8,797 nt of DNA, taken from Syntrophobacter sp. DG_60. GTDB lineage: Bacteria; Desulfobacterota; Desulfofervidia; Desulfofervidales; DG-60. The notes beneath the pieces were generated by a model. It was not told where the DNA came from. It ran no database searches and worked only from the letters and a program-made list of their open reading frames with translations. The stretch spans positions 1 to 8,797 of the forward strand of contig LJNA01000058.1 of assembly GCA_001304365.1 (NCBI GenBank), in the 5' to 3' direction. Numbering within the stretch: position 1 is the first letter of the stretch; each line of letters opens with the position of its first letter. Shown one piece after another: positions 2,538 through 8,797 of this stretch. Position numbers and translations under genes: made by a program.

Positions 2538-3134
2538 CTACCATCTCACTTTTTTCCTTCTCGCCTCTCCCTTCTTAATAATTCCACTTAACGTAAGCAC
2601 AAAAGCATTATCAAAATATGATTCATAGGGAAAGTCTTGATCAAAATTTGTCCTAAATAAGATATTTGAAACCATTTCATAAAATGTTAGAGCCACTTGG
2701 CTACGGTCTTTAATAAAAAATACTTCTTTTTTCTCCCCTTCTAAAAGCACAGATTCCAAAATATTTAGTAGTTTTGGCTTGAATTGATTGGCAATAGAGA
2801 CAATCTTATGAAATAACCTTTCAGGTTTTACTGAAAATAAAAAGAAACTCCTTCTTTTATCCATAACATAAGTAAGTCTTGTTTTTAGAAGATTGTATAG
2901 TTTTTTTTCAGGTGTAAGTTTTGATTCTTGGATTTTAGTCCATCTATCTATAAGTTCAATTTGTCCTAAAGAGACCAGTTCTAAAAGTATCTCTTCTTTG
3001 CTCCTAAAATGAAGATAGATGCTTCCCTTGCCTATATCTGCGTCTTTGGCAATCTCTTCTATTGTGGTTTTGTCATATCCATAGTGGGCAAATTTTTTGG
3101 CAGCTACTTCTAAGATAGTTTCTTTTACTCCCAT
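2538..3134 (-). CDS. TetR/AcrR-family transcriptional repressor, first gene of the RND operon
   Basis: With the ATG at 3134 the protein has 198 residues, normal for TetR regulators. The N-terminal HTH domain is clear: ETILEVAAKKFAHYGYDKTTIEEIAKDADIGKGSIYLHF at about residues 5-43, then the S-K-E-E start of helix 4. The rest is an all-helical ligand-binding and dimerisation domain with no recognised effector signature. The frame is open to a TTG at 3152, but that codon lies inside the palindrome only about 9 nt from the predicted transcription start. The ATG also gives the usual TetR N-terminus, so I prefer the ATG. Neither start has a good Shine-Dalgarno, so initiation may be weak. The gene lies just downstream of the palindrome at 3143-3171 and heads an operon with tolC-, acrA- and acrB-like genes. 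Autorepression is therefore likely, and a second palindrome before emrA suggests a wider regulon. Confidence 0.92.
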   Translation of the reverse strand: MGVKETILEVAAKKFAHYGYDKTTIEEIAKDADIGKGSIYLHFRSKEEILLELVSLGQIELIDRWTKIQESKLTPEKKLYNLLKTRLTYVMDKRRSFFLFSVKPERLFHKIVSIANQFKPKLLNILESVLLEGEKKEVFFIKDRSQVALTFYEMVSNILFRTNFDQDFPYESYFDNAFVLTLSGIIKKGEARRKKVRW

Positions 3135-3142
3135 TTTTTGAC

Positions 3143-3171
3143 TTTTGACCAAAATCGTTTTTTAGTCAAAA
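3143..3171 (-). promoter_or_regulatory. Putative TetR-family operator in front of tetR (copy 1)
   Basis: This is a 29-bp imperfect palindrome with half-sites TTTTGACYAAAA facing each other around a short centre. The inner core TGAC, 15 bp, GTCA spans 3146-3168. It overlaps the -10 box (3168-3173) and extends toward the tetR start, where bound repressor would block RNA polymerase. A further TTTTGAC at 3136-3142 repeats the left half-site in tandem. The same core occurs at 7557-7579 before emrA. Symmetry, position and duplication are seen; TetR binding is inferred. Confidence 0.75.
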
Positions 3172-3196
3172 TAACCATGATTTTTAAAAATGTCAA
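3168..3196 (-). promoter_or_regulatory. Sigma-70 promoter of the tetR-tolC-acrA-acrB operon
   Basis: On the minus strand there is a perfect -35 box TTGACA (3196-3191), a 17-nt spacer and a -10 box TATTTT (3173-3168). This gives a predicted transcription start near 3161, about 27 nt before the tetR ATG at 3134. The box spacing is optimal, and both boxes lie in the segment shared with the emrA upstream region. The palindrome begins at the -10 box. Confidence 0.75.
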
Positions 3197-3253
3197 TATT
3201 TTGTATGTCTTGAAAAAATGCAGAAGCTACTTAGTACTTAGGAGTATTCTTGA

Positions 3254-3628
3254 CTATTTTTTGAAGCTTTTAACTTTTTTTCTTACAAATTCTAAAAATT
3301 CTCTAATAGCCCCTTCTGGTTTATCACTTATGTGGCTTTGAACTACTTTATCCTCATCTCCATCATGAAAATGCTTTGGGAATGTTGCAATATTTTCCCA
3401 TCTTTTATGTGGAGCGTTATCATGACGATATATATGGCCATCCATAAATTTTCTCTCCCAATGATAACTGTATCTTCCTTTTAATTTTAATGAAAACCAA
3501 ACATCTATGAAGCTTCCATCAATAAGAATAATACGAAGTTCATTAATATCAGTGAGAATTACATCTTCAATGATATCACTAAATTCAACTTCAGCAATTT
3601 CTTTAAGTTTCTTAGTATCAACAATCAA
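3254..3628 (-). CDS. TumE-family (DUF6516) toxin of a type II-like toxin-antitoxin pair
   Basis: This is a 124-residue soluble protein. Its middle carries the signature of the TumE/DUF6516 toxin family: RYSYHWERKF, a tract like YRHDNAPHKRW, and a His-rich FPKHFHDG. The N-terminal part has the beta-hairpin pattern ELRIILIDGSFIDVWFSLK, and the C-terminus is a helix rich in Lys (FLEFVRKKVKSFKK). The clustered His, Arg and Asp residues look like an active centre, but I cannot name the reaction. The start is TTG at 3628, overlapping the upstream stop as TTGA. AAGGA at 3639-3635 lies 6 nt before it and supports this rare start. The coupling to a small helical DNA-binding-like protein is typical of antitoxin-first modules. 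The family call rests on motif recognition; toxicity is inferred. Confidence 0.75.
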   Translation of the reverse strand: MIVDTKKLKEIAEVEFSDIIEDVILTDINELRIILIDGSFIDVWFSLKLKGRYSYHWERKFMDGHIYRHDNAPHKRWENIATFPKHFHDGDEDKVVQSHISDKPEGAIREFLEFVRKKVKSFKK

Positions 3629-3918
3629 CCTATTTCCTTAAGAAGCTTTTCCAATTCATCTCTTTTAAACTCTAAATGGTCTAACTTTTGTAAATCTTGC
3701 CAAGAATCTTTCTCTTCAACTTCCCCCTTTTTATACAATTCTTCTAATTCTTCAACAGAAGAAACCTTATACTTTCCTACAATTTTAAAAATTTCAGTCT
3801 TTATCTCTCTCAATTTCCTCTCCAGAAAAACTTTTAAACTTTCCCTTAAGATTGCTTCTTTAGATAGGTTGAACTCTTGAGCTAACATCTCAATAGTTTT
3901 ATCAGCCCCTAATTGCAT
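3625..3918 (-). CDS. Small helical antitoxin-like protein paired with the TumE-type toxin
   Basis: From the ATG at 3918 this is a 97-residue, charged, mostly helical protein. The N-terminal part (DKTIEMLAQEFNLSKEAILRESLKVFLERKL) looks like a short helix-turn-helix or ribbon-helix-helix DNA-binding region. It is followed by KYKVSSVEELEELYKKGEVEE and a Trp-containing tail (DSWQDLQKLDHLEFKRDELEKLL). That tail layout is common in antitoxins that wrap their toxin. The frame is open further to an ATG at 3960, which would add 14 residues but has no ribosome-binding site. The 3918 ATG has a strong GGAGGAG just upstream, so I chose it. The stop overlaps the toxin start by 4 nt. Autoregulation by the complex would be usual for such modules, but no operator was pinned down. 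The name follows from the toxin neighbour. Confidence 0.7.
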   Translation of the reverse strand: MQLGADKTIEMLAQEFNLSKEAILRESLKVFLERKLREIKTEIFKIVGKYKVSSVEELEELYKKGEVEEKDSWQDLQKLDHLEFKRDELEKLLKEIG

Positions 3919-3921
3919 AAT

Positions 3922-3928
3922 CTCCTCC
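3922..3928 (-). promoter_or_regulatory. Strong Shine-Dalgarno deciding the antitoxin start
   Basis: On the minus strand GGAGGAG is followed by ATT and then the ATG at 3918. The GGAGG core lies 5 nt from the ATG, and a further GAGGTG lies a few bases upstream. It is the strongest ribosome-binding site in the window. The alternative start at 3960 has nothing comparable, so translation most likely begins at 3918. Confidence 0.75.
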
Positions 3929-3991
3929 ACCTCTTTTATCCTATTGAAAAGATTATACATCTAAAACTTTAAGTATCAAGCTTTACAACTT

Positions 3992-4021
3992 CTTATAGGT
4001 TTTGCTCTAGCCTTCTGGCAA
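3992..4021 (-). promoter_or_regulatory. Possible promoter of the toxin-antitoxin pair
   Basis: On the minus strand TTGCCA (4021-4016) and TATAAG (3997-3992) are separated by 18 nt, about 75 nt before the antitoxin ATG. Both boxes are moderate matches. A 6-bp inverted repeat (AGCCTT at 4009-4014, AAGGCT at 4024-4029) spans the -35 box and could be an operator, but it is short. This is a weak call. Confidence 0.4.
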
Positions 4022-4059
4022 TAAAGGCTTCTGTAAGGCATGTAGAGGCAAAATTCGCT

Positions 4060-4590
4060 TTAGCTAAACTTTGAAAAAAATGCATTGGCCAAAAGACCAA
4101 TAATGGGTGGAAGGAAAAAGGTAGTTGCCAGACGTACTATGGCAAACTTCCAACCAACTATCCCAATTTCTATGGGAAGGCGGGTAAAACCACAGAGAAA
4201 CTTTGCTGAATAAAAGGCCATTATCACCCCAATGCTTATACCTGTCTGGAAAAGTCCAGCCAAAATAGGCAAAATCGTATAAGGCCCACCTGGGGCAAGG
4301 AGCCCAGCTATGGTAGCAAGGAGTATCCCCTTAAAACCCGACTCTGCCCCTAGCCATTTAGAAATTACTGCTTGGGGGATGAGCACATTAACCATGCCCC
4401 CTACTATAAGGGAGAGAACTAGTAGAGGTATAATCTGAATTATCATAGACATGGCACCTTTTATGCCCAAAAGGTGCTTTCCTCCCCCCTGGTGGTAGCC
4501 AATAAAGATGAGGATAAGTGCCAAAATGCCCATTATTGCAGTTGAAATTAACATTTCCTTACTCCATTTTTTGTTTTGGTATTTATGCAT
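4060..4590 (-). CDS. Half-size integral membrane permease, ArsP/DUF318-like
   Basis: This 176-residue hydrophobic protein has about five membrane segments (roughly residues 13-32, 46-71, 86-112, 117-135 and 150-172). The pattern IIPLLVLSLIVGGMVNVLIP, then KWLG, then a Gly/Pro-rich LLAPGGPYTILPI and an A-F-Y-S-A-K-F segment resembles one repeat of the ArsP_1 (DUF318) predicted permeases. Those are usually 300-plus residues with two such halves. This gene therefore looks like one half unit that must dimerise or work with a partner gene not seen here. AAGG lies 8 nt before the ATG and supports the start. A 30-bp hairpin lies just upstream. Some relatives move organoarsenicals, but nothing here shows the substrate, and only one Cys (residue 133) is present. 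It sits between emrB and the toxin-antitoxin pair. Confidence 0.65.
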   Translation of the reverse strand: MHKYQNKKWSKEMLISTAIMGILALILIFIGYHQGGGKHLLGIKGAMSMIIQIIPLLVLSLIVGGMVNVLIPQAVISKWLGAESGFKGILLATIAGLLAPGGPYTILPILAGLFQTGISIGVIMAFYSAKFLCGFTRLPIEIGIVGWKFAIVRLATTFFLPPIIGLLANAFFSKFS

Positions 4591-4604
4591 TGGATACCTT
4601 ATAT

Positions 4605-4634
4605 CTGCTCAAAATTCAGTGGAATTTTGAACAG
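4605..4634 (-). promoter_or_regulatory. 13-bp-arm inverted repeat just upstream of the permease gene
   Basis: The arms CTGCTCAAAATTC (4605-4617) and GAATTTTGAACAG (4622-4634) are complementary at 12 of 13 positions. The exception is a G-U pair in RNA. The loop is 4 nt. On the minus strand it ends about 14 nt before the permease ATG, right next to the AAGG ribosome-binding site. No T-run follows, so it is not a normal intrinsic terminator. It may be an operator for an unknown regulator or an RNA hairpin that masks the start. Confidence 0.6.
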
Positions 4635-4701
4635 ACAATGAAAAATGAATATTGCAAATGCAAAATTTAAAATAAACACTTAAACAATAAATCTTTTCTT
4701 G

Positions 4702-4789
4702 CTATTCAGCCACAGATTTACGCTGATTACCGCTGATATTTTTTCTTTTATTATCTATCTTTCATCTGTGTGAATCTGCGGCTAAATAG
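4702..4789. repeat. 88-bp imperfect inverted-repeat (MITE/REP-like) element
   Basis: Two 26-bp arms (4702-4727 and 4764-4789) are inverted copies with about 21 of 26 matches, separated by 36 bp of A/T-rich DNA. Each arm contains a form of AGCCRCAGATT followed by short period-like GAT/CTG words. Interspersed repeats of the CCACAGATT type are known from many unrelated bacterial genomes. The arms are more GC-rich than the loop, so the transcript can fold into a long hairpin that may end or protect emrAB mRNA. Confidence 0.7.
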
Positions 4790-4798
4790 TTACCTTTT

Positions 4799-4842
4799 CT
4801 TTCATTTTGCATTTTTCAATTTGCACTCTGCATTTTGCAATC
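4799..4842. repeat. TGCAAA/TGCATTT-rich short repeats
   Basis: Within about 45 bp the words TTTTGCA, TTTTTCAA, TTTGCA and TTTTGCAA recur at 10-12 bp steps. A related tract in inverse orientation lies at about 4635-4676 (TTGCAAATGCAAAATTT). It is non-coding and ends just before the emrB-like stop codon. It is probably a degenerate interspersed repeat flanking the 88-bp element. Confidence 0.5.
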
Positions 4843-4844
4843 AA

Positions 4845-6347
4845 TTACGATACCTTTTTTATCCTTTTGAAAATCAGCAAGCTAGGCAATAGAAAAAGAA
4901 CAAAGATAGATAGAATATAAAAGGCATCATTAAAAGAAAGCATTGATGCTTGCCTTAAGAGTTCGTGATAAATAGAGCCTAGAACCATATCTTCTGGCAG
5001 CAGGTGCTTTAATGTTTCACAGGCATGTTGAAATGGTATATCTGTAGGGGTTAAATGGGTAACAAGCTGTGTTTGATGGAATTGAGCCCGACGTGCAAGT
5101 ACAGTAGTAACAAAGGCCACCCCAAAGCTACTCCCTAGATTACGCAAAAGATTAAAAATACTTGTGGCATTCCCCATATCTTCCTTTTTTATGCCTACAA
5201 AGGTAACTACAGTTAAAGGGACAAACAGAAAGGCCATGCCCACTCCCTGAACTAACCTAGGCCAAACAATGTTCCAAAAACCGGCACTAAGGTTGAATTG
5301 GGACATAAGGTAAATGGAATATGCGGCTATTGAAAGCCCAATCCCTAAAAGATAACGATTGTCTACCTTTTGGGTGAGCTTGCCCACTAATGGGAAAAAT
5401 AAAAGGGTGGCTATAGCCCCTGGTGCTAAGATAAGGCCTGCCAAAAATGCAGTATAACCCATGAGCTTTTGGACATATAACGGTAAAAGTACAACACTTC
5501 CCAGAAAACAAAAAAAATAAAGAAATATAACGAAAGTTCCTGTAGCATAGGAGCGATCCTTAAACGCCCTTAGATTTATCACTGGCTCTTTATATAAAAG
5601 TTCTCTAATCACAAGCAGGATAAGGGCAATAGCAGCAATTATAGACAAAGTTACAATAAAATGGGAACTAAACCAGTCTTTTCTCTGGCCTTTATCAAGT
5701 ACTATTTGCAAACATCCTATGCCAACTACTAAAAGCACTAGCCCCATATAGTCTATAGAGAAGAACTTACGCTTGAGATATGGAGGGTCAAAGATAAATA
5801 GCAGGGTCAAAATAATAGAAACAGTGCCAATAGGGATATTGATATAAAATATCCAGGGCCAACTCCAGTTCTCAGTAATCCATCCTCCTAATATAGGCCC
5901 AAGAATGGGCGCAAGCACAATGCCCGTTCCCCAGGTAGCCATAGCCATGCCGTGTTCCTCTTTGGGAAATGTCTCTAGGAGTATAGCCTGAGAAATAGGC
6001 TGGAGTCCCCCACCAGCTAGGCCTTGAATAACACGGAAAAATACTAACATACCTAAAGTAGTAGCACTGCCACACATAAAAGAACTTAGGGTAAAAAATG
6101 TAGCACAAAATATGAGGTACCTCTTTCTGCCAAATGCACTGGCCAGCCAGCCAGTAATAGGTATGATGATAGCATTAGAAACCAAATAAGAGGTAAGCAC
6201 CCAAGTGACTTCATCTACCCCTACACTGAGACTGCCTTGAATGTGAGGTAGAGATACATTGACAATGGTAATATCCATGATTTCCATAATGGTAGGAAGC
6301 ATCACTGTTACAGCGATTAACCATTTATTGATGGGCCTTCTTTCCAT
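4845..6347 (-). CDS. emrB: EmrB/QacA-type (DHA2, 14-TM) MFS drug efflux transporter
   Basis: This 500-residue protein from the ATG is a proton-driven MFS exporter of the DHA2 family. MEIMDITIVNVSLP in TM1 is the DHA2 motif D1, with Asp at about residue 25. TGWLASAFGRKRYL is motif A between TM2 and TM3. APILGPILGGWITENWSWPWIFYINIP carries the antiporter motif C (G-P-x-x-G-G) and the W-R/W-x-F-x-I-N-x-P stretch typical of EmrB. Length and hydrophobicity fit 14 TM helices. The upstream emrA stop is in TTGATG context. A TTG at 6350 would overlap by 4 nt and the ATG at 6347 by 1 nt; I prefer the ATG, as ribosome-binding evidence is weak for both. Together with EmrA it should expel toxic compounds across both membranes via a TolC-like channel. 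The substrate is unknown, and the symbol is by family resemblance. Confidence 0.92.
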   Translation of the reverse strand: MERRPINKWLIAVTVMLPTIMEIMDITIVNVSLPHIQGSLSVGVDEVTWVLTSYLVSNAIIIPITGWLASAFGRKRYLIFCATFFTLSSFMCGSATTLGMLVFFRVIQGLAGGGLQPISQAILLETFPKEEHGMAMATWGTGIVLAPILGPILGGWITENWSWPWIFYINIPIGTVSIILTLLFIFDPPYLKRKFFSIDYMGLVLLVVGIGCLQIVLDKGQRKDWFSSHFIVTLSIIAAIALILLVIRELLYKEPVINLRAFKDRSYATGTFVIFLYFFCFLGSVVLLPLYVQKLMGYTAFLAGLILAPGAIATLLFFPLVGKLTQKVDNRYLLGIGLSIAAYSIYLMSQFNLSAGFWNIVWPRLVQGVGMAFLFVPLTVVTFVGIKKEDMGNATSIFNLLRNLGSSFGVAFVTTVLARRAQFHQTQLVTHLTPTDIPFQHACETLKHLLPEDMVLGSIYHELLRQASMLSFNDAFYILSIFVLFLLPSLLIFKRIKKVS

Positions 6348-7327
6348 CAATCTCTTGCCAATACGGTAGTGATCACGGACATGCCAATCCTAAGTGGTAA
6401 ATTTGGATCTTGCTCTTCCTCCAAGACGATTTTTACAGGAATCCTTTGCACTACCTTTACCCAATTACCTGTAGCATTTTCTGGAGGAAAAAGGGAAAAG
6501 ACTGCTCCGCTTCCTGCCTGAATACTTTCCACCCGCCCATAAAACTTTTTCCCAGGATAGGTATCCACCTTAATAGTCACCTTCTGGCCTACTTTGATCC
6601 TCTCTAACTGGGTTTCCTTATAGTTTGCCTCTATCCAGATGTTGCTCAAAGGAACCATAGCCAAAAGCGGCATTCCAGGTTTCACCCTATGACCTACTTC
6701 TACAGACCTCTTTGTGATATATCCAGTTACTGGTGCCTTAATGATAGTATATTTTATGTCCAGCATAGCGTCATTTACCTGTGCTTCTTGGTCTTCCACT
6801 TGAGCCTTGGCTATATCTATCATTACTTTTGCCTGACTTAATTTTTCTTTAGCTACATCAAGACTAGCCTTTGTTACCTTATAATGTGTAAGGGCATGGT
6901 CATATTTTTCTTTTGAAACGGCAGCCTTTTTAAATAAGGCCTCTGCCCTATTTAGGTCTATCTTTGCTTGTTCGAACTGTGCTTTGGCCAATGTCAAATT
7001 TGCCTGAGCTGCTTGAAAATTTACCTTTGCCTCTCTTAATTTCCACTTGGCTAGAGAAAGGGAAGCCCTCGCCTGTGAAAGTTTTACCTCATACCTTTCA
7101 GGATCAATAGTTAAAAGTACTTCTCCCTCTTTTACCAATTCATTGTCATCTACTAAGACTTTGAGCACTGTACCCTCTATTCGGGGGCTAATCCAATGGA
7201 TATGCCCGCACACATATGCATTGTCTGTGGTAATATGGGTCTTTTTGTATTGTAAATAGAAAAGCACTGCAACTAAGGAAATTAAAATAAAGATAAAAAC
7301 AAAGATAGAAATCTTAATTACCTTCAT
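6347..7327 (-). CDS. emrA: EmrA-type membrane fusion protein of an MFS efflux pump (HlyD family)
   Basis: This 326-residue protein anchors in the inner membrane by one N-terminal helix (about residues 4-26) and reaches into the periplasm. The EmrA hallmark T-T-D-N-A-Y-V is at residues 33-39, followed by HWISPRIEGTVLKVLVDDNELVKEGEVL (first lipoyl half). An Ala/Lys-rich coiled-coil hairpin of about 110 residues follows. Next are IIKAPVTGYITKRSVEVGHRVKPGMPLL (second lipoyl half) and the barrel domain with ANYKETQLERIKVGQKV and QRIPVKI, all in EmrA order. It has no lipobox, unlike the RND adaptor downstream. The ATG has only a weak AGAAGA upstream. The 3' end is coupled to emrB. Transcription probably starts at the TetR-type promoter near 7571, leaving a leader of about 245 nt. 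Confidence 0.92.
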   Translation of the reverse strand: MKVIKISIFVFIFILISLVAVLFYLQYKKTHITTDNAYVCGHIHWISPRIEGTVLKVLVDDNELVKEGEVLLTIDPERYEVKLSQARASLSLAKWKLREAKVNFQAAQANLTLAKAQFEQAKIDLNRAEALFKKAAVSKEKYDHALTHYKVTKASLDVAKEKLSQAKVMIDIAKAQVEDQEAQVNDAMLDIKYTIIKAPVTGYITKRSVEVGHRVKPGMPLLAMVPLSNIWIEANYKETQLERIKVGQKVTIKVDTYPGKKFYGRVESIQAGSGAVFSLFPPENATGNWVKVVQRIPVKIVLEEEQDPNLPLRIGMSVITTVLARD

Positions 7328-7416
7328 CTATATTCTTCTATAGTAGTTTTTTATTGTGTCCATAATGTAAAAATCTTTTGCAGCCACCTTCAAAATAATA
7401 TCTCTTGTAATCGTTC

Positions 7417-7505
7417 ACCGCAGAGTGCACAGAGGACACAGAGAAAAATAAGAATTTTAAAAATGCTTTGCTTTTGTGCTTTGCGATCTCTGCTTTCTCT
7501 GCGGT
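7417..7505. repeat. 89-bp imperfect inverted-repeat element in the emrA leader
   Basis: The arms at 7417-7443 and 7479-7505 are inverted 27-bp copies with about 19 of 27 matches. Both outer ends are a perfect ACCGCAGAG / CTCTGCGGT pair, and the loop is 35 bp and A/T-rich. The inner parts consist of CAGAG-like words, a type of CGCAGAG interspersed repeat common in many bacterial genomes. It lies wholly inside the predicted emrA leader transcript, where it could form a hairpin. Confidence 0.7.
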
Positions 7506-7553
7506 AAATAAAAAATGATGAACGCTTGCTATCTCTTTGCTTCCCTTTTTGAC

Positions 7554-7582
7554 TTTTGACCAAAATCGTTTTTTAGTCATAT
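7554..7582 (-). promoter_or_regulatory. Putative TetR-family operator in front of emrAB (copy 2)
   Basis: The core TGAC, 15 bp, GTCA (7557-7579) is identical to that before tetR. Outside the core one flank differs (GTCATA instead of GTCAAA), so the palindrome is slightly shorter. It abuts and overlaps the -10 box at 7578-7583. Repression of emrAB by the TetR protein encoded at 2538-3134 is inferred from the identical site. Confidence 0.72.
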
Positions 7583-7605
7583 AACATGATTTTAAAGAAT
7601 GTCAA
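7578..7605 (-). promoter_or_regulatory. Sigma-70 promoter of emrAB
   Basis: On the minus strand the -35 box TTGACA (7605-7600) is followed by 16 nt and a -10 box TATATG (7583-7578), giving a start near 7571. The -35 is perfect and the -10 fair. Both correspond by alignment to the promoter before tetR. The emrA ATG is about 245 nt downstream. Confidence 0.68.
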
Positions 7606-7712
7606 TATTTTTAACGTTGCTATTGGAATTAAAAAAGAGAGAGATACTATCATGCTTAGGAAACCAGTTTGTTGGGTTTTATTGTTGAACAGCCAATCTC
7701 CCAATTTCTCTA

Positions 7713-8797
7713 TCAGTCTCTATCAGTCTCTTCTTTAATCAAGTCTCCTTTCACCAATACCTGTTTAATGTCCGTAATAGTCTTATACTGAGTGGTGATA
7801 ATTTCAATGCCTGCATCGGAAAGGACATAAAATGGCCCACGTCCTTCTAACTTCTGTCTGCTTACTACTATATCCACACCGTTTTTAATTAACCATTCAC
7901 CTACCTTTATACCCTTTCCCTTCTTTTCTGTGGCATATGGATTAGATATAATCTTTTCTTCCAAGATATAATTATCTTTCCTTAATTTAATAAAATAAAA
8001 GTAAGGGGCATCGCCAAAGTGCTCTGAGACAGCAATCTTGTCTATGTCCAATGGAGCACTATAAACCAAGCTATCTTTGGATATAGGTTCATAGTGGATC
8101 AAGATATGGTCTACGTGAGGGATTTCTTGTTTGATCCTTTGCTCAATCTGCTCACTAATCAAATGGGCCTTTTTAAAATCGTGCACATTGAGGGCGGTTA
8201 CTAGTTCAATAAATTTATACCTTCCCGAACTTCTTCCCCAAATGGTCTTTACCTTCGCCACACGGGGTTCAGATAAAACAATCTCCTTTACTTTATCTAA
8301 AGTGGTAAAATCTACAGAGGCATCTAAAAGCACCTTGATACTATCTACAAAGATCTCTAAGCCAGCTTTACCAATAAGAACCGCTACAAGTAACGCCACA
8401 ACCCTATCCAAACCAATCCCAAAGCTTTCCCCTATTAGGCCCACCAAAATAGCCAATGATGATAACATATCTGTCTTAATGTGCTGGGCATCGGCTACAA
8501 TGCTGGGAGAGCCTATTTCCTGTCCTTTTTTATATTCATATCTAGAAAATAGATATGTAATAACTATGGTCAGACATACACCTATTATAGCTACGGGTAT
8601 CTGGCGGAGATAAGTTACACCTCCTTTGGTAAAAGCATGTTTGACAATCTCAAAACCTGCGCCAAAGATTAAGAAAGCTACCACTAAAGAAATGAGGTTT
8701 TCCACCTTGTATAAACCATAGGGGAAGATGGAAGAGCGGCGTTTGGAAATTTTAATGCCTATTAAAATAGTACCAGAGGCCACAACATCAGAAAGAG
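7713..8797 (-). CDS. Cation diffusion facilitator with C-terminal NifX/NifB-like domain (5' end outside window)
   Basis: The reading frame is open to the right edge, so TM1 and part of TM2 are missing. The visible part begins L-S-D-V-V-A-S, the metal-site end of TM2. The GTG at 8783 is just an internal Val. Counting from that Val, TM segments follow at about 31-50, 62-80 and 103-147. The CDF metal motif H-I-K-T-D (H101, D105) sits at TM5. Next is the cytoplasmic CDF domain (about 155-232, ending VDHILIHYEP). A further domain at about 245-345 (DIDKIAVSEHFGDAPYFYFI; GEWLIKNGVDIVVS; GRGPFYVLSDAGIEI) resembles the NifX/NifB accessory fold (PF02579). The protein should export divalent metals such as Zn or Fe; the metal is not decidable. 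Its link to the pump genes downstream is unknown. Confidence 0.9.
   Translation of the reverse strand, partial: LSDVVASGTILIGIKISKRRSSIFPYGLYKVENLISLVVAFLIFGAGFEIVKHAFTKGGVTYLRQIPVAIIGVCLTIVITYLFSRYEYKKGQEIGSPSIVADAQHIKTDMLSSLAILVGLIGESFGIGLDRVVALLVAVLIGKAGLEIFVDSIKVLLDASVDFTTLDKVKEIVLSEPRVAKVKTIWGRSSGRYKFIELVTALNVHDFKKAHLISEQIEQRIKQEIPHVDHILIHYEPISKDSLVYSAPLDIDKIAVSEHFGDAPYFYFIKLRKDNYILEEKIISNPYATEKKGKGIKVGEWLIKNGVDIVVSRQKLEGRGPFYVLSDAGIEIITTQYKTITDIKQVLVKGDLIKEETDRD

Follow-up and report, generated by a model that had tools for sequence, protein, structure and literature searches.

Can one TetR-family repressor govern two separate efflux operons, and how would the second of them have come by its operator? 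These questions are raised by an 8,797-nucleotide stretch of Syntrophobacter sp. DG_60 contig LJNA01000058.1 (the window, by which we mean the whole stretch of DNA analysed), in which the regulator, the pump genes and two promoter/operator units all lie on the minus strand. The regulator (2538-3134, 198 aa) carries the recognition helix GKGSIYLHF. Its N-terminal helix-turn-helix matches Pfam TetR_N (PF00440; 3.7e-17, 62.3 bits, cutoff 24), its C-terminal part is the all-helical ligand-binding domain of the TetR fold, and by sequence its nearest solved structure is QacR (PDB, 3.7e-18); 18 NCBIfam models matched it, none reaching its cutoff. It is followed by a TolC-like outer-membrane channel of the OEP type (1173-2513; PF02321, 7.6e-59, 199 bits, cutoff 22), an RND periplasmic adaptor (56-1171; TIGR01730, 274.2 bits, cutoff 94.9) and, at 1-60, the start of a next gene (MIISDTCIRRPVATIMMMC, about 20 residues in translation), which is cut by the window end and which, by its resemblance, we take to be RND-pump-like. 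The second operon encodes an adaptor with HlyD domains in Pfam (6347-7327), named only EmrA-like because its TIGR00998 score of 306.8 bits is below the cutoff of 390.8, and an EmrB-like DHA2 MFS transporter (4845-6350; TIGR00711, 481.5 bits, cutoff 230.2), whose gene overlaps emrA by 4 bases. The only tolC-like gene in the window belongs to the tetR operon, and no gene for an outer-membrane channel is part of the emrAB operon, a distribution that would explain co-regulation of the two. No MarR-type domain was found by Pfam among the ten window proteins scanned.

Both operons are preceded by the same DNA. The bases 3135-3168 before tetR and 7546-7579 before emrA are identical over 34/34 bp, as the sequence-only reading had stated, and no exact repeat in the window is longer; in dinucleotide shuffles (n=200) the longest repeats reach 11 to 16 bp. 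On the minus strand the two units align locally over 82 columns, between AAAATATTGACA and a point shortly beyond the tetR ATG. In the part that begins a little ahead of the -35 box and reaches the operator, 29/34 columns are identical with two 1-base gaps, which bears out the earlier statement that the match continues through the -35 box with small gaps. Unit 1 (3135-3202; identified by repeat, alignment and promoter scan) consists of TTGACA (3191-3196), a 17-nt spacer, TATTTT (3168-3173), the operator and an extra half-site AGTCA. The 23-bp operator copy 1, TGACTAAAAAACGATTTTGGTCA (3146-3168), overlaps the 3′ end of the tetR -10 box, so that a palindromic site coincides with the promoter of the regulator's own gene; it is defined by the exact repeat, a motif scan and a similar site before the ortholog in locus L001. 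Operator copy 2 (7557-7579; exact repeat, motif scan) is identical to it in all 23 bp and lies in unit 2 (7546-7611; repeat, alignment), which is composed of TTGACA, 15-16 nt, TTATAT/TATATG, operator and AGTCA.

The -10 box that had been assigned to both units is clear in copy 1 and weaker in copy 2. The promoter scan recovers TTGACA-17-TATTTT before tetR (10/12 matches), whereas copy 2 is absent from its list, because the spacer is shorter and the -10 box would be either TATATG (spacer 16, TG one base before) or TTATAT (spacer 15). The palindrome TGAC-15 bp-GTCA, also part of the initial description, is exact in both copies, with 8/9 of the outer nine positions pairing. A palindrome arising by chance was ruled out: TGACYAAAAN5TTTTRGTCA with up to three mismatches matches twice in the window against 0.04 expected, and the background of a looser motif is 0.01 per 320 bp.

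If this palindrome is the operator of the regulator, it should be found with its relatives. A scan of genome contigs with the single TetR gave no match; with alignment A1 it gave 72 loci. The 23-bp site TGACY-N13-RGTCA is located upstream of 23/43 TetR genes with the helix KGSIYLHF, a number of TetRs inflated because the patterns used to find loci include KGSIYLHF, and upstream of 0/61 with other helices. This count takes in the window and L001 and drops L073 and L075, which are second fetches of the L001 locus; with these duplicates, 25 of 105 rows have the site. By helix, 23/29 TetRs with GKGSIYLHF have the site and 0/14 with a different residue preceding KGSIYLHF. Among the 20/43 KGSIYLHF TetRs without it are six GKGSIYLHF rows; L030 has a 24-bp version, L028 a 25-bp version, and L027 and L037 provide no usable upstream DNA. 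The TetR genes preceded by the site come from Acidobacteriota (one site per locus), Myxococcota and others, and on the TetR tree its presence is clustered (6 changes versus a shuffled mean of 21.1; 4 changes without the rows of unknown site state). Bases outside the search pattern are conserved too (A8 in 20, A11 in 19 and C12 in 17 of 21 distinct sites). In the inner halves of these sites 64/126 positions pair, and 484/5000 reshuffles of the right half do equally well; the core is thus conserved, not strictly palindromic. By this comparative evidence, TGACY-N13-RGTCA is very probably the operator of the regulator. We found no paper on this site, a search that is weak for subscription papers, many of which lay outside it.

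Elsewhere, matches were scarce. A further genome-wide scan gave extra places in 3 genomes, near the control level (1 reversed match); its pattern was narrower than the motif and did not recover the established sites in L006 and L007. One exact match to a degenerate operator falls on a phage-like contig (L105); no TetR was recognised on reading among the ORFs listed for it, and the match is taken as chance. Viral contigs contained no relative of the regulator, and the 320 plasmid records that matched TetR were all below 60% identity.

The nearest protein relatives of the TetR (P0002) and of EmrA (P0012) are 82% and 89% identical, respectively; EmrA homologues yielded no DNA context. The closest tetR-tolC-adaptor locus, L001, encodes a TetR with 66% identity. 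Here, TTGACA-17-TATTAT is followed by the 23-bp dyad directly before tetR-tolC-adaptor, with 20/23 bases kept and a differing spacer; the contig ends within the adaptor gene. No EmrB match was obtained in the L001 genome (2.1 Mb, completeness not established, no positive control), which leaves the emrA site without a second example. The part of this genome analysed contains one TetR at 1e-15 (profile), one site with a single mismatch and one with two (L074); the latter was rejected as an operator, since it adjoins a tRNA-like gene and on reading resembles a terminator stem. Searches of the order and class covered this genome alone. Across the phylum of the L001 genome, profile A1 matched 31/395 genomes at 1e-15, with a best E-value outside L001 of 5.7e-21, and none of these other matched loci has the site. 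Exact TGACYAAAAN5TTTTRGTCA occurs in 0/395 of these genomes, the reversed control in 1/395; the L001 site escapes the exact pattern because one base differs.

The myxobacterial relatives, one of which (L002) has ACR_tran, carry several copies. In 11/11 genomes a site-derived pattern matches only at the tetR-efflux locus, with two to four sites each, indicating that in this branch one TetR is associated with several operators. The site precedes tetR in all 11 loci and also matches between tetR and the adaptor in 10; in the eleventh, L020, the sequence stops between these genes. Five of the loci have a patatin gene upstream of tetR, and in each of them that gene is preceded by two sites. Together with the conservation of the site before related tetR genes, these multiple copies form the pattern of autoregulation plus further operons. 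Comparative sequence (L001, the helix counts and the myxobacterial copies) thus supports the claim, made from the window alone, of TetR autorepression with control of a second operon in trans.

How copy 2 arose is an aspect absent from the earlier reading. Immediately before emrA ends a decayed, frameshifted 5′ remnant of a second tetR (7334-7406, minus strand), which matches tetR nt 9-80 with indels and 52/74 identical columns. Its score of 27 compares with 15.5 for the best of 718 other window pieces, and tblastn of the region gives 6e-4. Between unit 2 and the remnant lies a CCGCAGAG-type inverted-repeat element (7416-7505, not assigned to a strand) with a hairpin of -33.6 kcal/mol (z -3.6); it is a dispersed element, related arrays being present in 15/198 genomes. 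The 60 bases directly after the 34-mer show no tetR homology (937/1000 shuffles equally good), as the homology begins past this inserted element. An 80-aa ORF at 7338-7580, which begins within the operator and has no Pfam match, is taken as chance. Since copy 2 heads the decayed gene, it looks like the retained operator of a lost paralogous repressor, not a promoter freshly copied to emrA. A convergent origin was rejected, as the match takes in the -35 box, extends beyond the tetR start and is followed by the remnant.

Is copy 2 still in use? It could be a functionless relic of the tetR promoter after its duplication, with emrAB transcribed from elsewhere and the identity due to recent duplication or gene conversion. 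The altered -10 region that the promoter scan did not call, the dead tetR behind it and the hairpin element in the emrA leader would all fit. Gene conversion could indeed maintain the identity of the two 34-bp blocks. However, while the remnant has fallen to 70% with indels, the operator block is unchanged at 34/34 (Fisher p 1.5e-4 against the remnant), a contrast that suggests selection exerted by the TetR that survives, and the -35 part retains 29/34; moreover, the promoter scan lists no other promoter-like site on the minus strand of 7327-7611. We therefore regard a dead copy 2 as improbable. An equally low probability attaches to another intact TetR paralogue, encoded elsewhere in the genome, that reads one or both sites: the decayed gene before emrA implies that paralogues once existed, and this family includes several near relatives, but tetR stands directly behind copy 1, likewise in L001, whose genome, in the part analysed, has one TetR at 1e-15 and one single-mismatch site. 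We give hardly any credence to a reading of the 34-mer as a dispersed repeat, or as the end of a mobile element, with no relation to TetR. Although the window does contain a dispersed element, the site follows the TetR recognition helix across phyla, and exact cores were absent from the 395 genomes of the L001 phylum.

From the repeats, the motif conservation in related TetRs, the remnant and the gene content, all read in the DNA itself, we infer binding, repression, ligand release, sharing of TolC and an order of decay as follows. TetR, probably in the form of one dimer or two, would bind the 23-bp dyad and obstruct RNA polymerase in the -10/+1 region. It would repress its own operon (tetR-tolC-RND adaptor-pump) through copy 1 and emrAB through copy 2, 4.4 kb away. 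A ligand, perhaps amphipathic or lipid-like, would release both operators, so that EmrAB and the TolC channel on which this pump depends would be produced jointly. Copy 2 would once have been the promoter/operator of a second tetR heading emrAB; this gene would then have decayed, its 3′ part being lost and the CCGCAGAG element now separating promoter from remnant, while the surviving TetR would have kept the operator in use. We consider this account, from dyad binding to the origin of copy 2, probable as a whole. With somewhat less assurance, and leaning only slightly in its favour, we suggest that TGACY-N13-RGTCA is the operator code of the GKGSIYLHF TetR group in at least four phyla, held constant while targets were swapped (the RND and EmrAB pumps of this locus, an RND pump together with a patatin phospholipase in myxobacteria, and an S41 peptidase in Acidobacteriota), with a dead paralogue's operator taken over here by the survivor. 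For a group of TetRs that occurs in several phyla, the locus would supply an operator sequence that can be tested; it would also tie two tripartite pumps, probably with one common outer-membrane channel, to one signal, and mark a likely step from local repressor to two-operon regulator, in which a paralogue is lost and its operator kept.

The predicted arrangement resembles that of QacR, the nearest solved sequence relative, in having the operator at the promoter of a pump operon. The QacR operator is a 28-bp inverted repeat with GACC/GGTC-type half-sites bound by two dimers, whereas the operator predicted here has 23 bp. In Vibrio cholerae the channel gene vceC is part of the same operon as the VceAB pump genes, in contrast to emrAB here, which has no channel gene. 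VceR is a ligand-responsive repressor of this EmrAB-type pump, VceCAB (PMC6780985). Multidrug-pump repressors of the QacR, AcrR, CmeR and TtgR type are described as local-only or proximal regulators (PMC8053128), unlike the present case, in which two operons have a common site. For the half-sites there is a precedent in Clostridium thermocellum TetR_0692, which is autoregulated and in gel shifts binds TGACCACGTGGTCA, a palindrome with TGACC/GGTCA half-sites like those here; PMC8457756 calls it unique in its genome and also places predicted sites before two putative efflux genes. The half-sites of TGACCACGTGGTCA are, however, 4 bp apart rather than 13, and the comparison made here is one of sites.

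The nearest functional parallel is Neisseria gonorrhoeae MtrR, a TetR-family protein without an obvious consensus site (PMC8053128). It regulates the RND pump MtrCDE and also sets the level of the EmrAB-like FarAB; this second effect is indirect, opposite in sign and exerted through repression of farR (PMC6780985). As there, an RND-pump regulator would here be tied to an EmrAB-like MFS pump; in contrast, an identical operator stands at both operons and the window shows no intermediate regulator. FarAB works with MtrE, the outer-membrane channel of the RND system (PMC6780985), and the gene content here fits such channel borrowing, with the TolC-like protein of the tetR operon predicted to serve EmrAB as well.

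Read from upstream to downstream, the assignable genes of the window, all on the minus strand, are a CDF cation transporter (7713-8795, start beyond the window) whose C terminus carries a Nitro_FeMo-Co domain (PF02579, 8.5e-15), emrA (6347-7327), emrB (4845-6350), an ArsP-like gene (4060-4590), a toxin/antitoxin-like pair (3254-3960), tetR (2538-3134), tolC (1173-2513), an RND adaptor (56-1171) and the opening codons of a next gene (1-60), presumably RND-pump-like. The half-length ArsP-like gene (176 aa; ArsP_1 match to positions 10-132 of 294) is a split or truncated permease. One gene of the toxin/antitoxin-like pair carries a TumE domain (PF20126, 2.1e-17), and its upstream partner encodes 111 aa without a Pfam match. 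Between emrB and the ArsP-like gene, the second of two inverted-repeat stretches in the window (4700-4790, CCACAGATTTACGCTGAT ... CATCTGTGTGAATCTGCGG) looks, by reading only, like a dispersed repeat.

The sequence-only reading had proposed that one TetR controls two pumps through twin promoter/operator copies. The repeat itself is borne out: a 34-bp block is identical before tetR (3135-3168, copy 1) and before emrA (7546-7579, copy 2) and is the longest exact repeat of the window, compared with longest repeats of only 11 to 16 bp in 200 dinucleotide shuffles. Both copies start on the gene strand with AAAATATTGACA, and in both the dyad TGACT-N13-GGTCA (3146-3168 and 7557-7579) directly follows the -10 box. 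The claimed -10 box holds for copy 1, which has a 17-nt spacer and TATTTT and is listed by a promoter scan; in copy 2 it is altered, with a shorter spacer region and either TATATG (spacer 16) or TTATAT (spacer 15), and this copy is absent from the list. A third half-site, AGTCA, begins 7 bp after the GGTCA start (3139-3143 and 7550-7554, minus strand). It may mark a second dimer; by reading, GGTCA stands at the equivalent position in L001, the Syntrophaceae MAG locus with the nearest TetR for which DNA context is available.

The L001 TetR is 66% identical to that of the window and heads a tetR-tolC-adaptor operon like that of the window, upstream of which TTGACA-17-TATTAT is followed by TGACCAAAAAACAAATTTGGTCA, with 20/23 operator bases as in the window. 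Among 70 of the 72 TetR loci found (two are without upstream DNA), 37 carry TGACY-N9..17-RGTCA in the 300 bp preceding the TetR match; the rest of those loci yields 33 matches in 1.03 Mb, true second sites included, or 0.01 per 320 bp. The exact 23-bp spacing accompanies 23 of the 43 TetRs with KGSIYLHF in the recognition helix (window and L001 counted) versus 0/61 with other helices. All 23 are among the 29 that read GKGSIYLHF, as the window TetR does, and none of the 14 with another preceding residue has the site. Apart from the window/L001 group, the site-bearing TetRs come, by record titles, from Acidobacteriota/Pyrinomonadaceae, one Verrucomicrobia MAG and myxobacteria. A 111-row TetR tree, in which 54 of 105 inner branches are weak, requires 6 changes of the site label (4 with rows of unknown state omitted) versus 21.1 in shuffles. 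On the strength of the L001 site and the helix counts, we judge the central proposal, one TetR acting on two pump operons, to be probably right. The predicted fold of this protein matches the TetR fold, with low confidence in the HTH part of the model, and QacR is its nearest solved relative by sequence.

Conservation among 21 distinct sites extends beyond the search pattern to A8 (20/21), A11 (19/21) and C12 (17/21), with the approximate consensus TGACY-N-R-A-W-N-A-C-N-A-W-T-Y-Y-RGTCA. Their inner halves pair no better than reshuffled halves (484/5000 as good), so TetR probably recognises the outer TGAC/GTCA dyad together with the conserved AT-rich core. The literature searched contained no description of this 23-bp motif. 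A phage-like contig (L105) has an exact match to the degenerate operator at 12120-12142, with another GGTC after it, probably by chance.

The leader of emrA points to the origin of copy 2. Positions 7334-7406 align with tetR nt 9-80 (52/74 columns, score 27; at most 15.5 among 718 other 88-bp window pieces) and with the L001 tetR (score 30; controls at most 17.5), and tblastn also detects tetR homology here in two frames (E 6e-4). This stretch, which reaches up to emrA, is what decay and frameshifting have left of the 5' part of a second tetR; emrAB was thus very likely once headed by a separate tetR that had the same operator, an origin that goes beyond the twin copies first proposed. At 7416-7505, between this remnant and the promoter/operator unit of copy 2, stands an inverted-repeat element that has CCGCAGAG arms and could form a hairpin. 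Among 198 genomes of the phylum to which L001's genome belongs, 15 contain related arrays, at up to 59 places in one, and the reversed control gives 1 place across all 198.

The identity of the two blocks could have been kept by gene conversion. What the comparison with the remnant argues for is retained operator function, copy 2 being read most obviously by the surviving TetR: the block is unchanged at 34/34 bases versus 52/74 (Fisher test, p 1.5e-4), and at the remnant's 30% change rate the chance of 34 unchanged bases is ~6e-6 if sites are independent and the remnant reflects the background rate of change. The emrA site is without a second example, because a search of L001's genome (2.1 Mb, completeness not established), run without a positive control, gave no EmrB match.

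Several operators for one TetR do occur in related loci. In 11 myxobacterial genomes (10.2-13.6 Mb), picked because the locus carries the site, a pattern built from these sites finds two to four distinct places in every genome, each on a contig belonging to the tetR-efflux locus, and its reversed control finds none. One such locus is spread over two contigs, the second with its site before an adaptor-like reading frame (by reading). The plain 23-bp motif also gives two to four sites per locus, placed before tetR and, in 10/11, between the tetR and adaptor matches (L020 stops there); in L002, tetR is followed by the genes for the adaptor, the RND pump (ACR_tran) and the OEP, in that order. Five of the loci (L002, L010, L014, L018 and L020) contain a patatin-like phospholipase gene preceded by two 23-bp sites, 3.0-3.4 kb upstream of the tetR site, and the six loci without this gene have no site at that place. 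As a guess, the patatin partner hints at a lipid or amphiphile ligand. In the two Acidobacteriota loci with annotated neighbours, an S41 peptidase gene directly follows a tetR with the same operator (L004 2665-3756, L007 10595-11677). With a narrower pattern, 10 of 11 other genomes give matches, most of them at the tetR site already known; the single extra places in three genomes are about at the level of the reversed control (1). Sites kept before such differing neighbours suggest that the operator code persists while target genes change, and several sites per TetR appear to be the rule in the myxobacterial branch, seen elsewhere in this window alone.

We propose that both operons would be blocked by TetR bound at their -10/+1 regions. 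EmrAB-type pumps require an outer-membrane channel; no channel gene lies beside the emrAB of the window, and tolC is in the tetR operon. For half-sites of the TGACC/GGTCA type there is a bench precedent in Clostridium thermocellum TetR_0692, which shifts DNA carrying TGACCACGTGGTCA (PMC8457756), where the half-sites have a closer spacing. For the partnership, two gonococcal reports describe an EmrAB-like pump able to use the channel of an RND system, and a regulator of the RND pump that can link both pumps (PMC6780985, PMC8053128). There, however, the link runs through FarR with opposite sign, whereas the TetR proposed here would block both operons.
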